Source: Psychrobacillus vulpis (GTDB lineage: Bacteria; Bacillota; Bacilli; Bacillales_A; Planococcaceae). Taken from it: DNA of 64,000 bases. The notes beneath the pieces are model-generated. The model was not told where the DNA came from. It ran no database searches and worked only from the letters and a program-made list of their open reading frames with translations. Location of the stretch: positions 66,716 through 130,715 of the forward strand of contig NZ_VDGI01000002.1 in assembly GCF_006861825.1 (NCBI RefSeq). The letters run 5' to 3'. Position 1 is the first letter of the stretch; each line of letters opens with the position of its first letter. Of this stretch, positions 11,250 to 58,125 are shown piece after piece. Position numbers and translations under genes: made by a program.

Positions 11250-11340
11250 GGACTCGATTTAAGGGGGCTTGGTCTCGAATATGGTTCAATTAGTCTCGGT
11301 TAAACTAGATTTGGTCTCGTTTGTAGCTAAATTGGTCTCG
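11250..11340 (-). repeat. 21-bp phased array, copy A (NERD locus 1)
   Basis: Read on the minus strand, the core CGAGACCAA or a close variant recurs with its first base at 11340, 11319, 11298, 11277 and 11256, a period of exactly 21 bp. The 12 bases between cores differ from unit to unit. There are five units. The array lies between the murA terminator and a NERD-gene remnant. Confidence 0.85.
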
Positions 11341-11362
11341 AACAGACATATACTGTAAAATT

Positions 11363-11414
11363 TCATTTCAAAAAAATTGCACTATATTTTGTGTTTCTAG
11401 AACAACCGGTTTTT
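11363..11414 (-). pseudogene. 3'-terminal remnant of a NERD-domain gene
   Basis: Read on the minus strand, this stretch encodes KTGCSRNTKYSAIFLK followed by a stop. It matches the last 16 codons of the intact NERD gene at 11610 apart from Arg to Cys at one position. Homology stops upstream at about 11414. It is the tail of a former tandem copy whose body is deleted, lying 248 bp from the intact gene end together with its own array. Confidence 0.8.
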
Positions 11415-11497
11415 AGAGTTGCTCCTGGGCAGGCAATAGAGTTTGCTCCTGGAGGCAGGAAAGGTGCTTGCGCATTTAGAGAGTGGATTTGTAGTTC
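11415..11497. other. Spacer between the two NERD-locus array copies
   Basis: Two copies of TTGCTCCTGG lie about 30 bases apart, but nothing codes. The stretch separates the remnant gene end from the second array. Confidence 0.4.
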
Positions 11498-11588
11498 TGT
11501 CTCAAATTGACGGGTAATGGTCTCGAATATGGTTCAATTAGTCTCGGTTAAACTAGATTTGGTCTCGTTTGTAGCTAAATTGGTTTCG
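11498..11588 (-). repeat. 21-bp phased array, copy B (NERD locus 1)
   Basis: On the minus strand, core first bases fall at 11588, 11567, 11546, 11525 and 11504, again exactly 21 bp apart. The four inner units match copy A base for base apart from a few substitutions, at a constant offset of 248 bp. This shows that a block of array plus gene end was duplicated. Copy B lies just downstream of the intact NERD gene. Confidence 0.87.
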
Positions 11589-11609: not shown

Positions 11610-12557
11610 TCATTTCAAAAAAATTGCACTATATTTTGTGTTTCTAGATCGACCGGTTTTAAGTAGCATTTCATTTTTTAATATTCGAGTTGCTTCATGC
11701 TTATTGTTTAATTGTAAAAACTGCTGACATTCCATATTAGACATTGTGCTTTTGCAGATTAAGAAATAATCTTTTAAAGATTGTTCATGAGCTCTTTTAT
11801 GATAGATTTTACATCTAGGGCAGAACCAGTTATGCTTTACTTTTTTCATTCCGATGAAGCCGCACTGAACGCATTCAACACCTTTGATAAGAGATTCTGG
11901 CTGTATTTGAAAGTGCTCACATAAGGGAAATGGATTAAAATCTTCGTTTGCATGTAAAATATCATTTTTTAGAGTATTAAGCTGTTCTTCTGTTAATAGT
12001 GGAGTGCCCGTTTTGATGTTCCTTAAAAAAGGTTTAATTCCTTTTCGAAACAAAACGGTTTTATGAGTTGGAGGTGTTTTAATATACCTTGATGCAAAAG
12101 CAAACACCAAGGCACTATAAATTGGGATAGAGATACCTCTTGTTTGAAAGAGTAGATTCAGTTGATATTCGTATTCCTCTAGTTGAATGACTGGATTATC
12201 GAAGGAATGGGACTCGTTCGTATCTAGTTTTCGAGTGAGTTGTTGCTCTGTGAATGTAATCTCTCCTTTTATATTTTTTTCTTCAAAAATTAAAGCGTAA
12301 TATGGACTGATAATTAATACATCCATTTGAAAAAGAGATTCAGAGTATAAAGATAGATTGTGAAAAACATAAAATTTGTATGGCAATTTTACTTGCCCCA
12401 TGACTTGCATAACTGCTTCTTCACCTAGTTCGCCAGCTACTTTTTGCCGGTATTCATTTTGAATCATGAAAAATTTTGAATGGTTCTTCGGTAATCGTTT
12501 ATGTAGTGCTCGAAGCGCATCAAAATAAAGTGAAACGGAATATTTTTTCGCTATCAT
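11610..12557 (-). CDS. NERD-domain nuclease-like protein with zinc ribbon (paralog 1)
   Basis: The protein (315 residues) starts with a helical region, then a NERD domain (about 45–160): GELGEEAV, FHNLSLY, QMDVLIISP and EEKNIKG. The Asp and E-x-K residues of a PD-(D/E)xK nuclease core are all present. A four-cysteine ribbon follows (CVQCGFIG…CPRC, about 232–258), then a conserved tail. NERD domains are known from proteins linked to DNA processing, but no activity is proven here. I start at ATG 12557 after GAGGTGATAGT. The gene interrupts the usual murA–spoIID order on the opposite strand and carries 21-bp arrays downstream. A paralog of almost the same length lies at 54865. Both features suggest a mobile or selfish unit. 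Confidence 0.85.
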   Translation of the reverse strand: MIAKKYSVSLYFDALRALHKRLPKNHSKFFMIQNEYRQKVAGELGEEAVMQVMGQVKLPYKFYVFHNLSLYSESLFQMDVLIISPYYALIFEEKNIKGEITFTEQQLTRKLDTNESHSFDNPVIQLEEYEYQLNLLFQTRGISIPIYSALVFAFASRYIKTPPTHKTVLFRKGIKPFLRNIKTGTPLLTEEQLNTLKNDILHANEDFNPFPLCEHFQIQPESLIKGVECVQCGFIGMKKVKHNWFCPRCKIYHKRAHEQSLKDYFLICKSTMSNMECQQFLQLNNKHEATRILKNEMLLKTGRSRNTKYSAIFLK

Positions 12558-12800
12558 ACTATCACCTCGAGTAAAGACTAGCATAGCTGTAAAATTATAC
12601 TCAAATGCTTAAAACAAAATTTTAATGAATTAATAAGTTTCAAAATTGAATTTTGCACTTAAAAACTCAATTTTGCTCTCTATTATTGATATAAAATTGA
12701 ATTTATGTATTTGTTTAAAATTATTAATATGTGTTCTCTTACTTGTAACTTAGAAACTAAATCTCTCATTATCAATCCGCTTCTCGCATATATTACCCCT

Positions 12801-36466: not shown

Positions 36467-38641
36467 ATGAGAGTATTAATTACAGGCGGGTACGGTTTTA
36501 TTGGATCTCATATAGCCGATAGATATTACAAAGAAGGCTATGAAGTATTTATTATAGACAATTTTTCAACAGGGAAAAAAGAAAATATCTCATTTAAACA
36601 TAAAAATTACAAACTATCAGTAGAGGATCCAAAATGCGAGGAGATCTTTAAGTCATATCACTTTGATGTAGTCGTTCATCTAGCTGCACAAGTTAGTGTT
36701 GCAAAATCGATCGTAAATCCGAGAGAAGATATAGAAGCAAATGTTGTTGGCCTTGTTAACATCATAACGCTTTCTCAGAAGTATCAAGTAAAGAAATTTA
36801 TTTTTGCTTCCTCAGCGGCTGTTTACGGTGTAAATGAAGTCATTCCATTAAAAGAAGATGAAATTATTAAACCGATTTCTCCATATGGAATTAGTAAATG
36901 GATAGGGGAAGAATATTGCAATAAGTGGAAAGAAATACACGACTTTGAGAGTGTATGTTTTCGTTTCTCCAATGTATATGGACCTAGACAAAATAATGAT
37001 GGAGAAGGTGGGGTAATATCTATCTTCTTGGATAGAATCATTAACAACGAACCAATAGATCTGTTTGGGGATGGAGAACAAACGAGGGATTTTATCTATG
37101 TGGAAGATGTTGCAGATGCTATCTTTAGAGCTTCTAATTCTAATATAGAGGGAATTTACAATTTATCCACCAATACGGAGTACAGTATTAATCATGTTAT
37201 AGATAAAATGAAAAATATTCATGGGGATATTCAAACAAATTACAAGTCAGGTAGAGTAGGGGATATCTATAAATCTGTATTAAGTAACCAAAAGGTGAAG
37301 GACGAGCTTGATTGGAGTCCCATGTATGATTTGGATGAAGGTTTAGAGCGTACGTATAATTGGACAATTACAAATCAAGCTAGTAAAGAAAGTGCCGTTA
37401 CAATTACTCCATCAAAGAGTAAGACCACCGTTATTTATAAAAAAATTCAACCTTATATTGAAAACTTATTAGTATTTTCATTTATCAGCTGGCTGATATT
37501 AACGAATCAGGTAAGTATGTTAGATACGATTGATGTAGGTATATTTTACATCATGATAATAGGGGTCATTTATGGGAATCGACAATCAATTATTGCAGTA
37601 GGATTATCCGTGTGGTTACTTGTTGCTGAAAAACTATTTGAAGGTCGCGAAATTATTTCTTTATTATATGATACTACTTTCTTTTTCCAAATTGCTCTCT
37701 TTTTATTTGTTGGTTTAGTTGTAGGTTACTCAATACAACGAAAAAATAATATGCTTAAAGAGCAAAAGATCAAAATAGAAGAATTGGATAAACGATATGA
37801 CTTTTTAAATGGAGTCTATGCGGAAGTGAGAGAAGTAAAGGAAGAGTTACAGTTACGAATGCTAAACAGTGGAGATAGTTTTGGAAAAATCCATTCAATC
37901 TTGAAGGAATTAGAAGGACTAGAGCCTGAAAAAGTATTTACAAGTACAGTTAACGTTGTACAAACGATAATGAATGTAAAAAACGTCTCCATTTATATTT
38001 TAAATAAAAATAACTCATTTTTAAGGTTAATAGCTAATTCAAATAAACCAGACATGTCTAGTATCAACTCACTTAAAGTTGATGAAGTGAAATATGTTCA
38101 AAATATATTAAAAGATGGAAAAGTATTTGTTAATAAACAATTACTTTCCGATATACCTTTAATGGCAGCCCCAATTTATCATGATAATAAAGTTGCAGCA
38201 ATTATTACAATAAACGACCTTGATTTTGAGAAATTTTCACTTTATCATGAAAATCTTTTTAAAGTAACAGCAGATTTAGTTGAGTCTGCTTTAGGAAGAG
38301 CATTCAGTTATATTGAAGCAACTGAAATGAATCGATATATTCCAAACACCAATATTCTGAAGTACAGCGTGTTTGAAGAAATTCTATCTAGTAAAAAAGA
38401 AGCGAAAGAAATGCATAAAACTCCTTTCTTATTATTAGAAGGCCTTTTTGAAGGGAAATCGATTGCTGAATATTCTAGAGTGATTTCAGGACTTTTGCGA
38501 GAAACGGATTATATAGGACAAAGTAAAAAAGACAACATCTTAGTTCTCTTATCCAACACAACAAGAAATGATGGAGAAGTTGTTTTATCTAGATTTAAAG
38601 AAAAAGGAATTAATTTCAAGTTGTTAGAAGGAGAGATATAA
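36467..38641 (+). CDS. Sugar-nucleotide epimerase fused to PelD-like c-di-GMP receptor
   Basis: Residues 1 to about 308 form an NAD-dependent epimerase/dehydratase of the GalE type: the dinucleotide loop GGYGFIG (7–13) and the catalytic Tyr140-x3-Lys144. After a linker come about four transmembrane helices (about 340–430), a coiled coil, a GAF domain (about 475–610) and a degenerate GGDEF domain. The GGDEF active-site motif is replaced by KKDNI, but the inhibitory site RxxD is kept as RETD (678–681), the residues PelD uses to bind cyclic-di-GMP. Family knowledge: PelD is the c-di-GMP sensor that turns on Pel synthesis, and GalE-type enzymes make UDP-GalNAc or UDP-Gal precursors. The in-frame fusion puts precursor supply and sensing in one 724-residue protein. 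Confidence 0.85.
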   Translation: MRVLITGGYGFIGSHIADRYYKEGYEVFIIDNFSTGKKENISFKHKNYKLSVEDPKCEEIFKSYHFDVVVHLAAQVSVAKSIVNPREDIEANVVGLVNIITLSQKYQVKKFIFASSAAVYGVNEVIPLKEDEIIKPISPYGISKWIGEEYCNKWKEIHDFESVCFRFSNVYGPRQNNDGEGGVISIFLDRIINNEPIDLFGDGEQTRDFIYVEDVADAIFRASNSNIEGIYNLSTNTEYSINHVIDKMKNIHGDIQTNYKSGRVGDIYKSVLSNQKVKDELDWSPMYDLDEGLERTYNWTITNQASKESAVTITPSKSKTTVIYKKIQPYIENLLVFSFISWLILTNQVSMLDTIDVGIFYIMIIGVIYGNRQSIIAVGLSVWLLVAEKLFEGREIISLLYDTTFFFQIALFLFVGLVVGYSIQRKNNMLKEQKIKIEELDKRYDFLNGVYAEVREVKEELQLRMLNSGDSFGKIHSILKELEGLEPEKVFTSTVNVVQTIMNVKNVSIYILNKNNSFLRLIANSNKPDMSSINSLKVDEVKYVQNILKDGKVFVNKQLLSDIPLMAAPIYHDNKVAAIITINDLDFEKFSLYHENLFKVTADLVESALGRAFSYIEATEMNRYIPNTNILKYSVFEEILSSKKEAKEMHKTPFLLLEGLFEGKSIAEYSRVISGLLRETDYIGQSKKDNILVLLSNTTRNDGEVVLSRFKEKGINFKLLEGEI

Positions 38642-52702: not shown

Positions 52703-53444
52703 GCGAATCGTCATTAAACTAGGTGGCAGTATGCTTGAACGGTTGAATAAAGAGCATATAGCCAATTTCAAACAACTGCAACAACAAGGAACAGAACTTA
52801 TTATTGTTCATGGCGGTGGCCAAGCAATAAATAAGCAACTTGAAAAAAACGGTGTAACCTCCACAACCATTAACGGTTTCCGAGTGACGTCAAAAGAAGC
52901 TGCCGATATTGTCCAAACAACATTAATCGGCCAAGTAAACCCAACTCTTGTCCACCAACTGAATAAAAGCGGGATAACCGCTATAGGTCTCAGTGGATAC
53001 GACGCGAACTTATTAGATTGCGACGTACTAGATAAAGAAACATACGGATTTGTAGGAGAAATAAAAGAAGTAAACAGCTCTCTACTCGACACATTAATAG
53101 CAAGCGGAATTACGCCGGTCATTTCGTGTGTTGGGTGCGCAGAAGATGGAACACCACTCAATATAAACGGTGATACAGTGGCAAGTAAAGTTGCTCTTGC
53201 AATGAAAGCAGACAGCTTACTCCTTGTAACGGACACACCTGGCATAAAAATCAATGGAGAAATTCTGCAACTAGTATCTACTTCAGCTATTAACAGTTGG
53301 ATTGAAACAGCTGACATATACGGGGGGATGATTCCAAAAGTATCTGCTGCCCTAGATTGCTTAGCTGCTGGAATTCCATCTGTACAAATTGTCGGGGAGA
53401 AACTAGAAGGTACGACTATTCTAAAACAGGGGGTATTCGCATGA
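52665..53444 (+). CDS. argB: Acetylglutamate kinase
   Basis: ArgB phosphorylates N-acetylglutamate, the second and controlling step of the pathway. The 259 residues show the amino-acid kinase motifs KLGGSML, VHGGGQAIN and the later INGDTVASKVA. The start overlaps argJ by 38 bases; the N-terminus is about a dozen residues longer than the Bacillus enzyme, so a later start is possible but no better ribosome site is visible. It overlaps argD by four bases. Confidence 0.94.
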   Translation: MTTSKSTQLTALKRIVIKLGGSMLERLNKEHIANFKQLQQQGTELIIVHGGGQAINKQLEKNGVTSTTINGFRVTSKEAADIVQTTLIGQVNPTLVHQLNKSGITAIGLSGYDANLLDCDVLDKETYGFVGEIKEVNSSLLDTLIASGITPVISCVGCAEDGTPLNINGDTVASKVALAMKADSLLLVTDTPGIKINGEILQLVSTSAINSWIETADIYGGMIPKVSAALDCLAAGIPSVQIVGEKLEGTTILKQGVFA

Positions 53445-54565
53445 GTGCATTATTCCAAAACTACGCGCGTCGTCCAGTTCATCTCATACAAGGAAAAGGC
53501 ACAATCGTTACGGATGATACTGGAAAAGACTATCTTGACTTTACTAGTGGAATTGCCGTTCTAAGTCTTGGGCACGCTCACCCTGCAATTGTTCAAGCAA
53601 TTCAACAACAAAGCGAAAAGCTGTGGCACACATCCAATTTATTCGAAAGTCCAGAGCAAGAGCAGCTCGCAGCTTCACTCGTAAAGGGTACACATCTCGC
53701 ACGCGGCTTTTTCTGTAATAGCGGAGCAGAAGCAAATGAAGCTGCTATCAAACTAGCTCGAAAGCATACTGGAAAACATGTCATCATCACATTCGAAAAA
53801 TCATTTCATGGTCGCACATTCGGAGCAATGTCCGCAACGGGGCAAGAAAAAGTACGTCAAGGATTCGGTCCATTACTAGACACATTTAGAACCATTCCAT
53901 TCAATGACGTAGATCAACTCGAAGCATTAATTGACGACGGAGTAGCTGCAATCATGCTTGAAGTCATTCAAGGTGAGGGTGGGGTTAACAAAGTGTCTCC
54001 CGAATTCGCCCAAGCAATTGCAGCCATTTGCGATTCAAAAGACATTTTACTTATCATTGACGAAGTGCAAACAGGAATCGGTCGTACTGGAACACGCTAT
54101 GCCTACGAGCAAACCGCCCTAAAACCTGACATTTTGACGTTAGCGAAAGGTCTTGGAGGTGGGTTCCCGATTGGAGCTATGCTTGGTACGAGTGCGTTAC
54201 ATGATTCGTTCGGACCCGGTACCCACGGATCAACATTCGGTGGTAACCCTCTAGCAGTGGCCGTTGCACAAACAGTTATCAATAATGTATTTACTTCTGA
54301 ATTTTTAATTGCTGTGAATGAAAAATCTACCTACTTTATGGGTAAATTAAAAACAGCACTACCAGCTTATGAAATTGTTGGCTCTGGCTTACTACTCGGT
54401 ATCGTTTGTCCAGATGAAGTTGCGCCATACATAGCGCAAGCAGAACAAGCGGGTCTTTTACTAGTAGCAGCTGGACCAAACGTTATCAGACTCCTGCCAC
54501 CATTAACGGTTACAACCGAAGAAATCGACCAAGCAGTTAATGTACTTTCTTCTATATTAATATAA
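53441..54565 (+). CDS. argD: Acetylornithine aminotransferase
   Basis: ArgD makes N-acetylornithine from the semialdehyde and glutamate, using PLP. The 374-residue fold-type I enzyme has the PLP-phosphate contact NSGAEANEAA, the acidic DEVQTGIGRTG motif and the Schiff-base Lys in LAKGLGGGFPIGAM. It starts at ATG 53441 after GGGGGTATTCGC, overlapping the argB stop. The operon ends here; carAB and argF, which often follow in Bacillus, are not in the window. Confidence 0.96.
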   Translation: MSALFQNYARRPVHLIQGKGTIVTDDTGKDYLDFTSGIAVLSLGHAHPAIVQAIQQQSEKLWHTSNLFESPEQEQLAASLVKGTHLARGFFCNSGAEANEAAIKLARKHTGKHVIITFEKSFHGRTFGAMSATGQEKVRQGFGPLLDTFRTIPFNDVDQLEALIDDGVAAIMLEVIQGEGGVNKVSPEFAQAIAAICDSKDILLIIDEVQTGIGRTGTRYAYEQTALKPDILTLAKGLGGGFPIGAMLGTSALHDSFGPGTHGSTFGGNPLAVAVAQTVINNVFTSEFLIAVNEKSTYFMGKLKTALPAYEIVGSGLLLGIVCPDEVAPYIAQAEQAGLLLVAAGPNVIRLLPPLTVTTEEIDQAVNVLSSILI

Positions 54566-54615
54566 CTTCATCCAACTTGAATTAAAGCGCTCAGCGAATC
54601 GCTATTCATTCCTTT

Positions 54616-54648
54616 AAAAGCTGTCTTATGTGATAAGGCAGCTTTTTT
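54616..54648 (+). terminator. arg operon terminator
   Basis: AAAAGCTGTCTTAT (54616–54629) pairs with ATAAGGCAGCTTTTTT (54633–54648), a strong intrinsic terminator. Confidence 0.93.
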
Positions 54649-54669
54649 ATATGGAAATAAAATCCGTTC

Positions 54670-54816
54670 CGAGAGAATCTTGGGGCTATCCGAGAGAACC
54701 AGATCCTTATGCGAGAGAATCTTGGGGCTATCCGAGAGAACCAGATCCTTATGCGAGAGAATCTTGGGGCTATCCGAGAGAATCCACATTCTATCCGAGA
54801 GAATTTATCCTTGTAT
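54670..54816 (+). repeat. 21-bp phased array upstream of NERD paralog 2
   Basis: The core CGAGAGAA begins at 54670, 54691, 54712, 54733, 54754, 54775 and 54796: seven units, each exactly 21 bp apart. The 12- to 13-base remainders alternate between TCTTGGGGCTATC and CCAGATCCTTATG in the first five units, so a 42-bp pair was duplicated, and then become unique. The frames read open on both strands because 21 is a multiple of three. No ribosome site is present, so I treat it as non-coding. Confidence 0.93.
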
Positions 54817-54864
54817 AGATTTTCCAAATAGAATGTGCTAATCTATCGGGGAGGTGATAGAACA

Positions 54865-55815
54865 TTGATTGTAAAAGCATTTTCGCAATCGTTATATTCA
54901 GAAGCACTAACGGCATTATCCAAACGACTCCCTCGTTTACATCCAAAATATGCATCCATTAAAGAAGAACAATACAGAATAGCAGCAGGTGATGCAGGCG
55001 AAGAAGCCGTTATGAAAAAACTTGAATCATTAACATTGCCATGCAAGCACTATGTATTCCACAACATTTCTCTCTACGGTGATTCGCTATTCCAAATGGA
55101 CTTGCTCATCATCACACCCTACTTTGCAATGATCCTCGAAGTAAAAAACATCAAAGGCACTATTGAACTCTTGACTAATCCATCCCAGTTAAAAAGAACA
55201 CTCGAAACCGGCGAAGTCCACACGTTCGACAGCCCCGAACCGCAATTAGAGGAATCCATGTACCAACTAACTCGAATATTTAAGGAACATAACATCGATC
55301 TCCCTATTCGTGGTGCGATCGTATTTGCTTTTGCGAAAAACTATATTAAAACAATAACTAATCAAACGACCATTTTACTGCGTAATGAAGTGCCATCTTA
55401 TGTTAGAAAAATAAATAGGGAAAATCCTATTCTTTCCGATGCAGACTTAGAGAAACTGAAAGAATATCTTCTAAAGAAGGATGTTCCATTTAAGCCTTTT
55501 CCATTAAGTAGCTATTTCAGCATCCCAGCATCTGAAATAAAGTCAGGAGTAGAATGCTCAAATTGTAGCTTTATCGGTATGTTAAAGCTCCCAAGAACAT
55601 GGTACTGTCCAAAGTGTAGAAAATTTGAACATAAAGCACATGAGCAAACGATAAGAGAATACTTCCTTCTATATAAAGGCTTCATAACTAATAAAGACTG
55701 CCGACAATTTTTCCAATTAAACAATCTACATGAAGCTACTAGAATTCTAAATGGATCCAATCTAATGAAAACCGGGAATGGAAAAAATACAAAGTACTTT
55801 AAAATGGATTTTTAA
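54865..55815 (+). CDS. NERD-domain nuclease-like protein with zinc ribbon (paralog 2)
   Basis: Paralog of the product at 11610–12557, matching along its entire 316-residue length. The NERD domain has GDAGEEAV, FHNISLYGDSLFQMDLLII and LEVKNIKG, again keeping the Asp and E-x-K of a PD-(D/E)xK core. The ribbon is CSNCSFIG…CPKC and the end is LMKTGNGKNTKYFK. I start at TTG 54865 after GGGAGGTGATAGAACA, which gives the same N-terminal pattern (MIVKAFSQSLYSEAL). The gene lies after the arg terminator, with arrays of 21-bp units on both sides. Its DNA target and activity are unknown. Confidence 0.87.
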   Translation: MIVKAFSQSLYSEALTALSKRLPRLHPKYASIKEEQYRIAAGDAGEEAVMKKLESLTLPCKHYVFHNISLYGDSLFQMDLLIITPYFAMILEVKNIKGTIELLTNPSQLKRTLETGEVHTFDSPEPQLEESMYQLTRIFKEHNIDLPIRGAIVFAFAKNYIKTITNQTTILLRNEVPSYVRKINRENPILSDADLEKLKEYLLKKDVPFKPFPLSSYFSIPASEIKSGVECSNCSFIGMLKLPRTWYCPKCRKFEHKAHEQTIREYFLLYKGFITNKDCRQFFQLNNLHEATRILNGSNLMKTGNGKNTKYFKMDF

Positions 55816-55822
55816 TCCTTTA

Positions 55823-55920
55823 TGAGAGAAAAAGAATGCCAACCGAGAGAATATGCCCCTCATGCGAGAGAATAAACAGTTTATCCGAGAGAATCCACCA
55901 CTTATCCGAGAGTAAATGAC
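55823..55920 (+). repeat. 21-bp phased array downstream of NERD paralog 2
   Basis: Cores begin at 55823 (TGAGAGAA), 55844, 55865, 55886 and 55907 (CGAGAGTA): five units, again exactly 21 bp apart, eight bases after the gene. Together with the upstream array, twelve units bracket the gene in the same orientation. Confidence 0.92.
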
Positions 55921-56001
55921 CCTGACTCCAAATTATCATTGCCACTTGTGTAAACTATTGGTACACTCATCCTACATAAGACAATTGGAGGAGTAAAATA
56001 C

Positions 56002-56469
56002 ATGCAAACTTGGCACAAAGAAATACAAATCCCAGCACCGATAGAAACTGTTTGGAATCTATTTCAACTAGATCAAATCCAGCGTATCATGCCAAACGTC
56101 GTGGAGCACAAACCATTAGAAATTAAAGAAGGTGTAGTCGGCTCAACTTATCAGCAAACATACAAAGAAGGAAAAAGAACGGAAACTTACATCGTGACGG
56201 ACATAGAGCACGAGAATACGCCCAATAAGAAACATAACAAGATTGAGTTTTCCTTAGCAAAAGTGTTTAAAATACAAGCGGCATTCACCTTAATAAAAGT
56301 AGACGATCAAACAACAACATTTATCTATACTGGCCAAAATGAAGGCATCAATTTAATGGGCCGTATTTTGACTAAGCTAGCTACAAAAAAACAAAACGAA
56401 AAAGTAGTGAATGGATTCGTGGAACTAGTTCGCACGGAAGCATTAAAAGACTTAAATAAGGAGTCATAA
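56002..56469 (+). CDS. SRPBCC (START-like) family protein
   Basis: A 155-residue cytoplasmic helix-grip protein. The start (WHKEIQIPAPIETVWNLFQLDQIQRIMPNVVEHKPL) is typical of the polyketide-cyclase/CoxG branch of the SRPBCC superfamily, which bind hydrophobic small molecules. The ligand is unknown. ATTGGAGGAGTAAAATAC precedes the ATG. It is followed after two bases by a DUF1761 gene, so the two may function together. Confidence 0.8.
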   Translation: MQTWHKEIQIPAPIETVWNLFQLDQIQRIMPNVVEHKPLEIKEGVVGSTYQQTYKEGKRTETYIVTDIEHENTPNKKHNKIEFSLAKVFKIQAAFTLIKVDDQTTTFIYTGQNEGINLMGRILTKLATKKQNEKVVNGFVELVRTEALKDLNKES

Positions 56470-56471
56470 TC

Positions 56472-56852
56472 ATGTCAATCGATTGGAGTAATATGAACTT
56501 TATAGCCATTCTTGCTGGAGGGCTATTATATATGATTTATGGTGGAATTTATTATTCTGTTCTACTATCTGGAAAAAAAGACAATCAAAGCAATGGGCCG
56601 TTCAAATACATTTATTCTGTTATTATTGCATTCATTAATTCATTTTTAGTAGCGATTCTCCTTCAAGCAACGTCTTCGGATAGCGTGCTGCAAGGAGCGG
56701 CAATCGGATTCATTATTGGGATCATTATTACGATGGTTTATGTGAAAAACGCATTATTTGGACTCATTTCTAAAAAATCATTAGTCATCGCAATTGGAGA
56801 TCATTTAATCATATTTACATTACTTGGTATTTTGCATAGTTTATTAGCTTAA
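56472..56852 (+). CDS. DUF1761 membrane protein
   Basis: A 126-residue protein with four transmembrane helices (about 8–30, 46–66, 74–92 and 100–122), fitting DUF1761. AAGGAGTCATAATC lies over the upstream stop codon. Its function is unknown. Confidence 0.75.
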   Translation: MSIDWSNMNFIAILAGGLLYMIYGGIYYSVLLSGKKDNQSNGPFKYIYSVIIAFINSFLVAILLQATSSDSVLQGAAIGFIIGIIITMVYVKNALFGLISKKSLVIAIGDHLIIFTLLGILHSLLA

Positions 56853-56856
56853 TAAA

Positions 56857-56978
56857 AGAAAATCGTTGAAACGGCTCCCTTTCCGCGGGCGAGCCTTAGC
56901 CTCCTCGCTGCGCTGCGGGGTCTTCGGCTAACGCTATTCCCGCAGGAGTGTCACCTTTTTCAACGATTTTCTAGAAAT
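56857..56978 (-). repeat. GC-rich 122-bp intergenic repeat, minus orientation
   Basis: A copy of the core repeat in reverse: AGAAAATCGTTGAAACGG at one end and CAACGATTTTCTAGAAAT at the other, with CCGCGGGCG and CGCAGGAGTG inside. It begins five bases after the DUF1761 stop, so it could also serve as that gene's 3' structure. Confidence 0.85.
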
Positions 56979-56979
56979 T

Positions 56980-57024
56980 AAAAAGTAGAGTGTGGGAATT
57001 GTTAAAGTTCCCCCTCTACTTTTT
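56980..57024. terminator. Bidirectional hairpin
   Basis: AAAAAGTAGAG (56980–56990) pairs with CTCTACTTTTT (57014–57024), with GGGAA/TTCCC inside. It would terminate both the DUF1761 transcript and the convergent cupin-regulator transcript. Confidence 0.75.
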
Positions 57025-57090
57025 GGCCTATTAGACAAACTCTAAAAAACTAGTTAGCTACAATCTTATTATTTTTACATAGGATAGATT

Positions 57091-57216
57091 TGGTTTTCCG
57101 AAGCTTACCGCTCGCTTTCCGCGGGCGAGAGCCGAGCCACTTCGTCGCTATGCTCCTGAAGGGTCTCGTCTGTCTCGCTTATCCCGCAGGAGTCTAGCGC
57201 ACGCTTCTCCAAACCA
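57091..57216 (-). repeat. Divergent GC-rich repeat, subtype 2
   Basis: Similar inner arms (CTTTCCGCGGGCGAG and CCCGCAGGAGTCT) but different outer arms (TGGTTTTCCGAAGC with GCTTCTCCAAACCA). A second member lies at 60822. This is a separate subfamily of the same repeat design. Confidence 0.65.
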
Positions 57217-57295
57217 TTAAAGTGATACCTTTCTACTTCAATCTCGGGTGTGAGAAACCTTATGATGGGCTACCCTTTTCCCACTAGTGTTTCTT

Positions 57296-57850
57296 CTAAA
57301 AACTATGTGTCATCGCCCAAATAGACACGGCGTTTTCTTCACCGAGATTCATGAAACGGTGAGGGAGAGAGCTGTCAAAGTAAACGCTATCGCCTTCATT
57401 GATAATATGAATCTCACCTTCTACCTCAATTCGCAAACTCCCCTTTAGCATAATACCGCATTCTTCGCCAACGTGATACATTAGCGGGGCATTTAAATCC
57501 TCACCAGGCTCTACGACCATTTTGAAAAAGCTCATTTGTTTTCCAGAACTTGGTGACAACAACTCATAGCTAACATTTGGGCGAACCCGTTTAACTACCT
57601 TTGTTTCCTTTGCCCGTGAAATTTTGACGATATTAGATTCTTCCATTTCAAAAAATGAAAAAACAGGAACTTGTAAACTATGGCTCAATTTCCAAAGCGT
57701 CTCTAGCGATGGAGAGACCTGTCCTCGTTCAATTTGAGAAATCATACTCTGACTTATTCCTGCAAGTTTCGCAAGCTCCTCAGAAGTTAACCCTTGTGAT
57801 TTCCTTAAATACCTTATTCGTTTTCCTACTTCCGTTTTTGGAAACTCCAT
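57296..57850 (-). CDS. XRE–cupin transcription regulator
   Basis: The 184-residue protein has an N-terminal helix-turn-helix (about 9–63: GLTSEELAKLAGISQSMISQIERGQVSPSLETLWKLS) and a C-terminal cupin domain (about 105–180) that would bind a small effector. Regulators of this design often control amino-acid or polyamine uptake and use. It is divergent from the amino-acid ABC transporter operon at 58126 and is its likely regulator. Its start is ATG 57850. Confidence 0.88.
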   Translation of the reverse strand: MEFPKTEVGKRIRYLRKSQGLTSEELAKLAGISQSMISQIERGQVSPSLETLWKLSHSLQVPVFSFFEMEESNIVKISRAKETKVVKRVRPNVSYELLSPSSGKQMSFFKMVVEPGEDLNAPLMYHVGEECGIMLKGSLRIEVEGEIHIINEGDSVYFDSSLPHRFMNLGEENAVSIWAMTHSF

Positions 57851-57872
57851 TAAGCAACACTCTCCCGTTGTA

Positions 57873-57886
57873 TGAATAATTATTCA
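57873..57886. promoter_or_regulatory. ARG-box-like palindrome
   Basis: TGAATAATTATTCA is a perfect 14-bp palindrome that matches the ARG-box core TGAAT-WWWW-ATTCA used by ArgR/AhrC. A second partial match (TGAATATTTTATTAA) starts at 57909. It lies 22 bases before the cupin-regulator start and 240 bases before the transporter, so it might instead be the operator of the cupin regulator. Confidence 0.6.
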
Positions 57887-58125
57887 TTTGACAGAATAAT
57901 TAAACGTCTGAATATTTTATTAATACTAAAACAAAGACTCTCATAAACTCTAATTAATAGACCCTTATCCTATATTTTGCACTTTTTTTCCAATAGAATC
58001 AATAATAAAAATATTATAACGAGTTATTTTTTATGTAGACAGGTGAATAATAATAACTTATACTACTAATAATTCAGTAGATAAATAAGGGGAACTGAAG
58101 AAATTATAAATGGGGGTAATGATAA

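Follow-up and report, generated by a model that had tools for sequence, protein, structure and literature searches.

NERD-domain genes with a zinc ribbon and a predicted winged helix are usually accompanied by phased direct-repeat arrays whose cores follow the protein lineage

Genes encoding NERD-domain proteins that end in a zinc ribbon and a predicted winged helix usually adjoin arrays of short direct repeats, phased at 20 to 21 bp, as judged from the genomes compared here, beginning with a locus in Psychrobacillus vulpis. The tailed NERD protein and the phased array beside its gene very probably constitute a cognate pair, and the core of each repeat is probably bound through the winged helix. 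Comparison among loci supports the association itself, lineage-specific cores, the dispersal and turnover of arrays, and an intact predicted active site. We read the whole as a sequence-specific nuclease paired with an array of its own sites, resembling the REP/RAYT partnership and spreading with the help of the nuclease, and we give this reading a probability of about one half.

The NERD gene and its arrays in the window

The window, the whole 64-kb stretch of DNA that was analysed, contains seven exact CGAGAGAA cores upstream of a NERD gene (54670..54803, + strand; cores at 54670, 54691, 54712, 54733, 54754, 54775 and 54796) and five cores downstream of it (55823..55914, + strand), three of them exact (55844, 55865 and 55886) and two with one mismatch (TGAGAGAA at 55823 and CGAGAGTA at 55907). 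Every step inside both arrays is 21 bp, and the computed positions of the twelve cores confirm the number and exact spacing given in an earlier note on this DNA. That note also described the remainders between the cores as mostly different, a description that fails upstream, where they are largely a 42-bp dimer repeated in about three copies with a 94% match. The first downstream core lies 7 bp past the stop codon of the NERD gene. Exact CGAGAGAA occurs 11 times in the window against 1.5 expected, a count reached in 0 of 100 shuffles; ten of these 11 lie inside the arrays, and the remaining one, at 36720, is unrelated. Throughout the 4.02-Mb genome, the pattern CGAGAGA-14N-CGAGAGA is found 34 times and the same pattern written backwards is found 0 times.

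The upstream array is situated directly 3' of argD and of a hairpin with a T-run at 54616-54649, which was recognized by eye and is absent from the output of the computed scan. The open reading frames (ORFs) were called mechanically, and the array is open on the + strand as an ORF of 62 aa. Here and below, argD, gatB, ribH, murA and spoIID are provisional names given from the look of the sequences. A separate, dispersed GC-rich repeat containing TTTCCGCGGG has eight copies in the window (at 113, 294, 642, 823, 34253, 56880, 57116 and 60632) against 0.03 expected.

The only gene between the two arrays (54865..55815, + strand) has a likely TTG start at 54865, preceded by GGAGGTGAT; the query protein began one codon earlier, at 54862, and residue numbers count from there. 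Pfam finds only the NERD domain in its product (PF08378, PD-(D/E)xK class; 54988..55326, + strand; 56.3 bits against a curated cut-off of 22.1; E 5.3e-15), with predicted active-site residues E47 (55000), D80 (55099), E93 (55138) and K95 (55144). Across 73 proteins G43, G46, E47, D80 and K95 never vary, and at least 90% of the proteins have E93. The alignment of 73 proteins also delineates a zinc ribbon, C232/C235...C249/C252 (55555..55617, + strand), in which C235, C249 and C252 are invariant and C232 is retained in at least 90%. The NERD domain and the CxxC...CxxC ribbon agree with what the earlier note had said of this gene; overlooked there was a winged helix behind the ribbon (55636..55800, + strand). 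In an AlphaFold2 model of the window protein (mean pLDDT 95.1, pTM 0.88), the predicted C-terminal three helices (259-270, 277-284 and 289-298) and two-strand wing (302-304 and 311-313) have the winged-helix layout, and helix 289-298, encoded by codons 55726-55755, is the modelled recognition helix. Foldseek with this model found nothing that reached E 0.001; its best matches, too weak to rely on, were proteins of PD-(D/E)xK type, among them Can2, Bax1 and Nt.BspD6I, and a sequence search of solved structures gave weak zinc-ribbon matches only.

An origin in a plasmid, phage or virus was considered and rejected: tblastn with the single window protein found no match in 72,556 plasmid records at E 1e-10 and none in 50,697 phage records at E 1e-5, and viral sequences likewise gave none for this protein. 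The arrays also lie on a chromosomal contig beside argD, which together with these searches agrees with the previous opinion that they are not iterons.

The window contains a second NERD gene of the family with its own array, at 11.3-12.6 kb, which the earlier note had likewise overlooked. The gene (11610..12584, - strand) has the core CGAGACCA, and its array (11497..11588, - strand) consists of five units at 21-bp steps: CGAAACCA, CGAGACCA, CGAGACTA, CGAGACCA and TGAGACAG. Directly downstream of the gene lies a duplicate of its 3' tail and array (11270..11440, - strand), with cores at 11340, 11319, 11298 and 11277. NERD 3'-end fragments directly adjoin arrays in this place (window 11270-11440) and at L174:4799-5050, as if gene tail and array had been copied together or the gene had decayed from its 5' end.

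Phased arrays across the family of tailed NERD genes

An array of at least five units was detected in the 1.2-kb flanks of 95 of 109 distinct tailed NERD genes by a detector that chains 8-mers, with one mismatch allowed, at 19-22 bp. These genes come from the window genus, its family and six other array-bearing families of the class; they were selected by homology along the length of one alignment and sampled from ranked lists and chosen stretches, so that most belong to one genus and are related, and some are broken (stops or fragments in 7/88 of one subset). Five loci (L368, L372, L378, L380 and L381) have no ribbon by a simple pattern and yet possess arrays. Locus L366 gave no match. Full-alignment matches in 249 sampled genomes of the phylum were confined to the window's own class.

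NERD genes without the ribbon and winged-helix tail had an array in 1/36 cases (Fisher against 95/109, 4e-21), namely one gene that scored 6 among 16 and none in a further 20, where the top score was 4. The 20 loci L386-L402 and L406-L408 are outside the 109 and were used as negative controls. Control segments had an array in 4/131 cases, and three of these four are arrays with the core of the NERD gene at the same locus, the other being of low complexity. These counts uphold the earlier proposal that phased cores are tied to this type of NERD gene. Coincidence, or ordinary tandem repeats that merely happen to lie near NERD genes, is hardly credible: higher-order duplications do indicate that ordinary tandem duplication lengthens arrays, and CGAGAGA triplets do occur in unrelated taxa without NERD, but the controls contradict it and the cores follow the protein lineage.

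With no lag preselected, the flanks contain 1560 exact 8-mer pairs at lag 21, 282 at lag 20 and 124 at lag 19, whereas each remaining lag between 9 and 38 has 0-34; among chained steps 861 are of 21 bp, 118 of 19 bp and 94 of 20 bp, and a 20-bp period prevails at a few loci (L232, L248 and L251). The units of 20-21 bp are non-palindromic and comprise a core of 8-12 bp and a remainder of 9-13 bp. Because steps of 19 and 20 bp disrupt any reading frame, the arrays are not part of a translated repeat protein, the outcome that the earlier note had named as one that would overturn its reading. Its suggestion of repeated binding on one face of the helix fits the predicted winged helix, the binding itself being a prediction.

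The flanking of the window gene on both sides, which had been described as bracketing, is not a general feature, the arrays being only 3' of the gene in 55 cases, only 5' in 25, on both sides in just 15 of the 109, and on neither side in 14. The 3' arrays begin a median of 38.5 bp past the stop codon, 48/70 of them within 60 bp. Both arrays have the same orientation at 14/15 two-sided loci and are inverted only at L249; they are therefore unlike paired inverted transposon ends, and the proposal that they mark the ends of a selfish element was abandoned.

The constant orientation has a bearing on a reading at the level of RNA, according to which gene and array are transcribed together and the array gives rise to small RNAs that direct the nuclease or block it, in the manner of OMEGA/TnpB or of type III toxin-antitoxin systems. 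The single core orientation relative to the gene at those 14/15 two-sided loci would suit such RNAs, as would arrays placed between stop codon and terminator (L170). We nevertheless regard this reading as quite improbable, given that the 20-21-bp step is a number of the DNA helix, that the array of L214 comes after the terminator (by eye) and those of L249 are inverted, that remainders are not conserved and 53000-58000 of the window has no Rfam match, that the protein combines a winged helix with a PD-(D/E)xK fold, and that gene-free arrays keep no steady orientation to local genes (32/49 on the majority strand). In the type III toxin-antitoxin system ToxIN, a nuclease gene also stands beside a tandem array; the ToxI repeats lie upstream, are longer and are conserved throughout, whereas NERD arrays have variable remainders and are found mainly on the 3' side of a gene whose product appears to be directed at DNA.

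The closeness of array and gene, with 48/70 3' arrays less than 60 bp from the stop, would also be expected if the arrays were a DNA sink or an operator that keeps a potentially harmful nuclease inactive or regulates its expression, the nuclease acting in defence on foreign DNA or under stress. Several paralogues per genome and fast evolution do resemble conflict genes, and passages of two accounts place NERD domains in described or proposed defence systems (PMC12458937, PMC10910872). Against this, the window protein matched no PADLOC family at E up to 1 and had no PHROG match, its gene is set among housekeeping genes on either side with no defence island, a 5' array, on the operator side, accompanies only 40/109 genes, and a sink leaves unexplained the large dispersed families and the gene-less arrays of genome G009 described below; we consider a restrained nuclease distinctly unlikely. 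Three loci (L299, L300 and L302, from G007, G014 and G004) hold adjacent pairs of NERD genes of another type, with products of about 356 aa and about 180-256 aa, possibly a separate two-gene system.

Cores, protein lineages and dispersed arrays

Different lineages of the protein are associated with different cores, among them CGAGAGAA in the window, CGACAAAC, GCAAGTAA, AGCAACCA, CGAGACCA, CGCCCGAG, CCCATAAA, ACCACATA, AGTTCCAC, ATCGCTCAAT and ATCGGTCGAAT, and AATCGCTCAAT is the core of another paralogue lineage. Genes of the same lineage have a common core across genomes (L170/L200, L195/L202, L194/L204 and L212/L218/L220); paralogues within one genome have differing cores. For 66 loci with a usable motif, the similarity of cores was correlated with protein identity (Mantel) at r 0.46 for the NERD domain, 0.41 for the winged helix and 0.35 for the ribbon. 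Given the NERD domain, the partial r is 0.116 for the winged helix (4/2000 permutations as high) and 0.043 for the ribbon (245/2000); given the winged helix, it is 0.25 for the NERD domain (0/2000). The NERD domain accordingly adds to the correlation beyond the winged helix, which may not be the sole determinant of the core. The alignment columns best tied to the core are T293 and N288, both placed at the modelled recognition helix 289-298; the 20 best columns also include L289 and H290. On these comparisons, NERD genes and core motifs look like matched partners that evolve together.

Changes of core are also evident at fixed chromosomal sites. A NERD gene follows argD in 8/19 genomes of the genus; in the seven besides the window genome, identity with the window sequence is 48-54% for the NERD protein, against 78-86% for ArgD. 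The cores at this site include CGAGAGAA, TACGAGAG, CGAGAGTAA, GCAAGTA and CGACAAA. The second NERD gene of the window is flanked by murA and spoIID and has the same neighbours in six other genomes, where the NERD proteins are 59-66% identical and MurA 93-96%; the core is CGAGACCA in the window genome and AGCAACCA-like in G010, G011, G014 and G017. Apparent positional orthologues, then, are seen to have different cores and to evolve faster than their neighbours. That the NERD genes remain at old sites argues against a vigorous mobile element. Some genomes have an array at the argD site but lack a NERD gene within the following 1.5 kb: in G002, G010 and G017 its core is that of a distant NERD gene, in G003 roughly that of a NERD gene elsewhere, in G006 it was unmatched among the G006 genes examined, and in G009 none of the three full-length NERD genes is cognate to it.

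Arrays are dispersed well beyond the genes. The window genome contains nine further clusters of the phased CGAGAGA core, all overlooked by the earlier note, and one of them adjoins a decayed NERD fragment (L174). Phased pairs of GCAAGTA number 170 in G009, 29 in G008, 1 in G005 and 0 in G000 and G015; for ATCGCTCAAT, pairs were found in G000 beside the gene and in three further places, in G003 beside the gene and in a single further place, and 0 times in G004, G007 and G013. Reversed-pattern controls gave 0 for the genomes tested for dispersed pairs. The largest family, the 170 pairs of G009, has a core that is absent from the three full-length NERD genes of that genome; arrays, therefore, either outlive the gene or do not need it. 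The syntenic DNA of Psychrobacillus antarcticus (L100), ~70-76% identical to the window, has a CGAGAGA-core array in a gap that is array-free in the window.

The gap after gatB contains arrays of four core types in 9/19 genomes and none in ten (by eye). These arrays follow a terminator hairpin (by eye), and in G005 and G015 their core is unlike that of the genome's own argD-site gene, as would be expected of relics. Other distant arrays for which no cognate gene was found look like relics as well. The idea that a change in the protein updates every gene-free array in concert was rejected on the ground that the gatB-site arrays of G005 and G015 keep a different core. In one genome (L178:4867-5317), the gap after gatB holds a 14-unit array in three blocks about 169 bp apart, with AT-rich palindromes between phased cores; in G001, G008 and G012 the gap is occupied by stretches resembling the TTTCCGCGGG GC-rich repeat.

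Distribution among intergenic gaps is uneven. Of the 49 gene-free or distant array groups, 11 overlap ORFs of at least 80 aa and were excluded when gap types were compared; the gaps of the rest are convergent in 16 cases, codirectional in 20 and divergent in 2; array-free gaps at the same loci are 6 convergent, 59 codirectional and 25 divergent (convergent against divergent, arrays against array-free, Fisher 3e-6). A replication- or gene-strand orientation of gene-free arrays was rejected, there being no steady bias toward the majority coding strand (13/21, 11/13, 5/9 and 3/6; pooled 32/49). In two near-complete genomes, 7/13 and 4/13 clusters lie within 150 kb of the cognate gene, against about 0.9 expected, as computed from typed positions. 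In gene-free units the remainders are almost without information and the cores informative, a contrast that is only indicative because the units were chosen by their core.

Several of these features would suit a use by the host, in which the cell employs the arrays as dispersed protein-docking sites, for instance to organise the chromosome or to block read-through downstream of genes. The nuclease fold would then serve for binding or see little use, and spread would be a by-product. Arrays favour gaps after genes (16 convergent and 2 divergent, against 6 and 25 array-free), those at gatB come after the terminator hairpin (by eye), the remainders of gene-free units, selected by core, are nearly random while their cores are informative, and NERD genes remain at fixed sites. 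A preference for 3' gaps is, however, also expected from tolerated insertions; the gatB site is array-free in 10/19 genomes, with a core that varies between species; the active-site residues are invariant in 73 proteins; and arrays cluster near the cognate gene in two genomes (7/13 and 4/13 against about 0.9). We judge host use, both as docking sites and in its account of the nuclease fold, to be rather unlikely.

The earlier note held that finding the same arrays widely with no NERD gene nearby would tell against a link. Such arrays do occur for CGAGAGA, but in several families the core matches that of a distant NERD gene, so that a test by proximity misleads when a core-matched gene exists elsewhere in the genome. 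Triplets of CGAGAGA were found in at least 117 further stretches, mostly from unrelated taxa, and the fetched DNA of the listed 117, together with 3 viral stretches, gave no NERD match. Three IMG/VR viral contigs (L290, L291 and L292) have 3 to 6 CGAGAGA cores, mostly at 21-bp steps, and CGAGAGA arrays with a strict 20-bp step lie at the edge of the fetched stretches in Lentibacillus sediminis (L083 and L102).

A candidate nuclease and arrays of its proposed binding sites

We propose that the gene product is a sequence-specific DNA-binding nuclease, in which an N-terminal PD-(D/E)xK (NERD) domain is followed by a zinc ribbon and, at the C-terminus, by a winged helix, and that the adjoining array is a row of its own putative binding sites. 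The winged helix would read the 8-12-bp core of each unit, and a repeat of two helical turns would let monomers dock side by side along one face of the helix. Protein and core would change together, each lineage in a genome having a private core. Binding and nuclease action at the arrays may promote recombination that lengthens them and seeds arrays at new gene-free sites, and a change of specificity would strand older array families as relics. The pair would then behave as a long-resident, fast-evolving nuclease accompanied by dispersed non-coding repeats. Binding and cutting by the NERD protein are predictions from its domains; that the nuclease drives the spread of arrays falls somewhat short of an even chance, and only tentatively do we suggest an undescribed repeat-disseminating class in which a PD-(D/E)xK nuclease, its winged helix open to repeated switches of specificity, binds phased arrays of its own core and drives their growth and seeding. 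Counting against the mechanism are the 14/109 genes without an array of five units, the G009 family and the G006 array with no matching gene among those examined, the deviating gatB-site arrays of G005 and G015, and the 120 CGAGAGA loci whose fetched DNA gave no NERD match.

The arrangement parallels, by analogy, that of REP sequences and RAYTs, although the nuclease is unrelated. According to passages of PMC2817692, RAYT/REP systems comprise dispersed intergenic repeats and a cognate DNA-cleaving protein whose gene lies beside its own repeats; between RAYT orthologues at a given site the repeats have changed, and these orthologues diverge more quickly than adjacent genes. The likenesses are a repeat that is cognate to the protein and changes with it (here r 0.46 over 66 loci), repeats dispersed away from the gene, and faster evolution of the gene at a fixed site (48-54% against 78-86%, and 59-66% against 93-96%). 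RAYTs, however, are HUH (Y1) tyrosine transposases rather than NERD proteins with a ribbon and winged helix, and REPs are palindromic and form inverted pairs around the gene, unlike the non-palindromic direct units on a 20-21-bp grid.

The STAR elements of staphylococci are intergenic direct repeats with a short conserved core and a variable spacer, at loci stable within species and different between them, and their function and mechanism of spread are given as unknown in the relevant part of PMC3532100. They differ, again on that part of the account, in a 14-bp GC-rich core, at least 40 bp between repeats and no known partner gene (PMC3532100); NERD arrays, by contrast, have different cores, a 20-21-bp step and a partner gene. 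As in CRISPR, a repeated core and a variable part alternate next to the gene of a nuclease, but CRISPR repeats measure about 20-40 bp and their spacers are about as long or longer, as opposed to cores of 8-12 bp in units of 20-21 bp, and NERD arrays are dispersed genome-wide with cores that differ between closely related genes. There is also no cas gene among the listed neighbours of the window array, and the former judgement that it is not CRISPR holds.

Other NERD proteins (SmdA, TALON and CRISPR-linked NERD) have the NERD domain in common with this family; NERD genes lacking the ribbon and winged-helix tail had arrays in just the 1/36 noted above. SmdA is described as a membrane protein without several conserved NERD residues, and its authors remark, in a passage of their paper, that to their knowledge NERD function had been unstudied in any bacterial protein (PMC9040797). 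In the open-access literature, searched by word matching of mostly titles and abstract openings, we recognized no description of NERD-linked arrays, and an earlier account elsewhere is possible.

The association provides a partner gene, and thus an experimental handle, for a class of bacterial intergenic direct-repeat arrays, and it attaches a putative DNA target to NERD proteins, whose domain was called unstudied in bacteria as recently as 2022 in the passage just mentioned (PMC9040797). For deciphering a winged-helix recognition code there are dozens of natural helix-core pairs to draw on, and specificity that turns over at fixed loci would be a bacterial case of fast protein-DNA coevolution. 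If the tentatively suggested repeat-disseminating class is real, a natural code would link recognition helix to core over many cognate pairs, and these proteins would represent a second, non-HUH solution to the role of the RAYTs.
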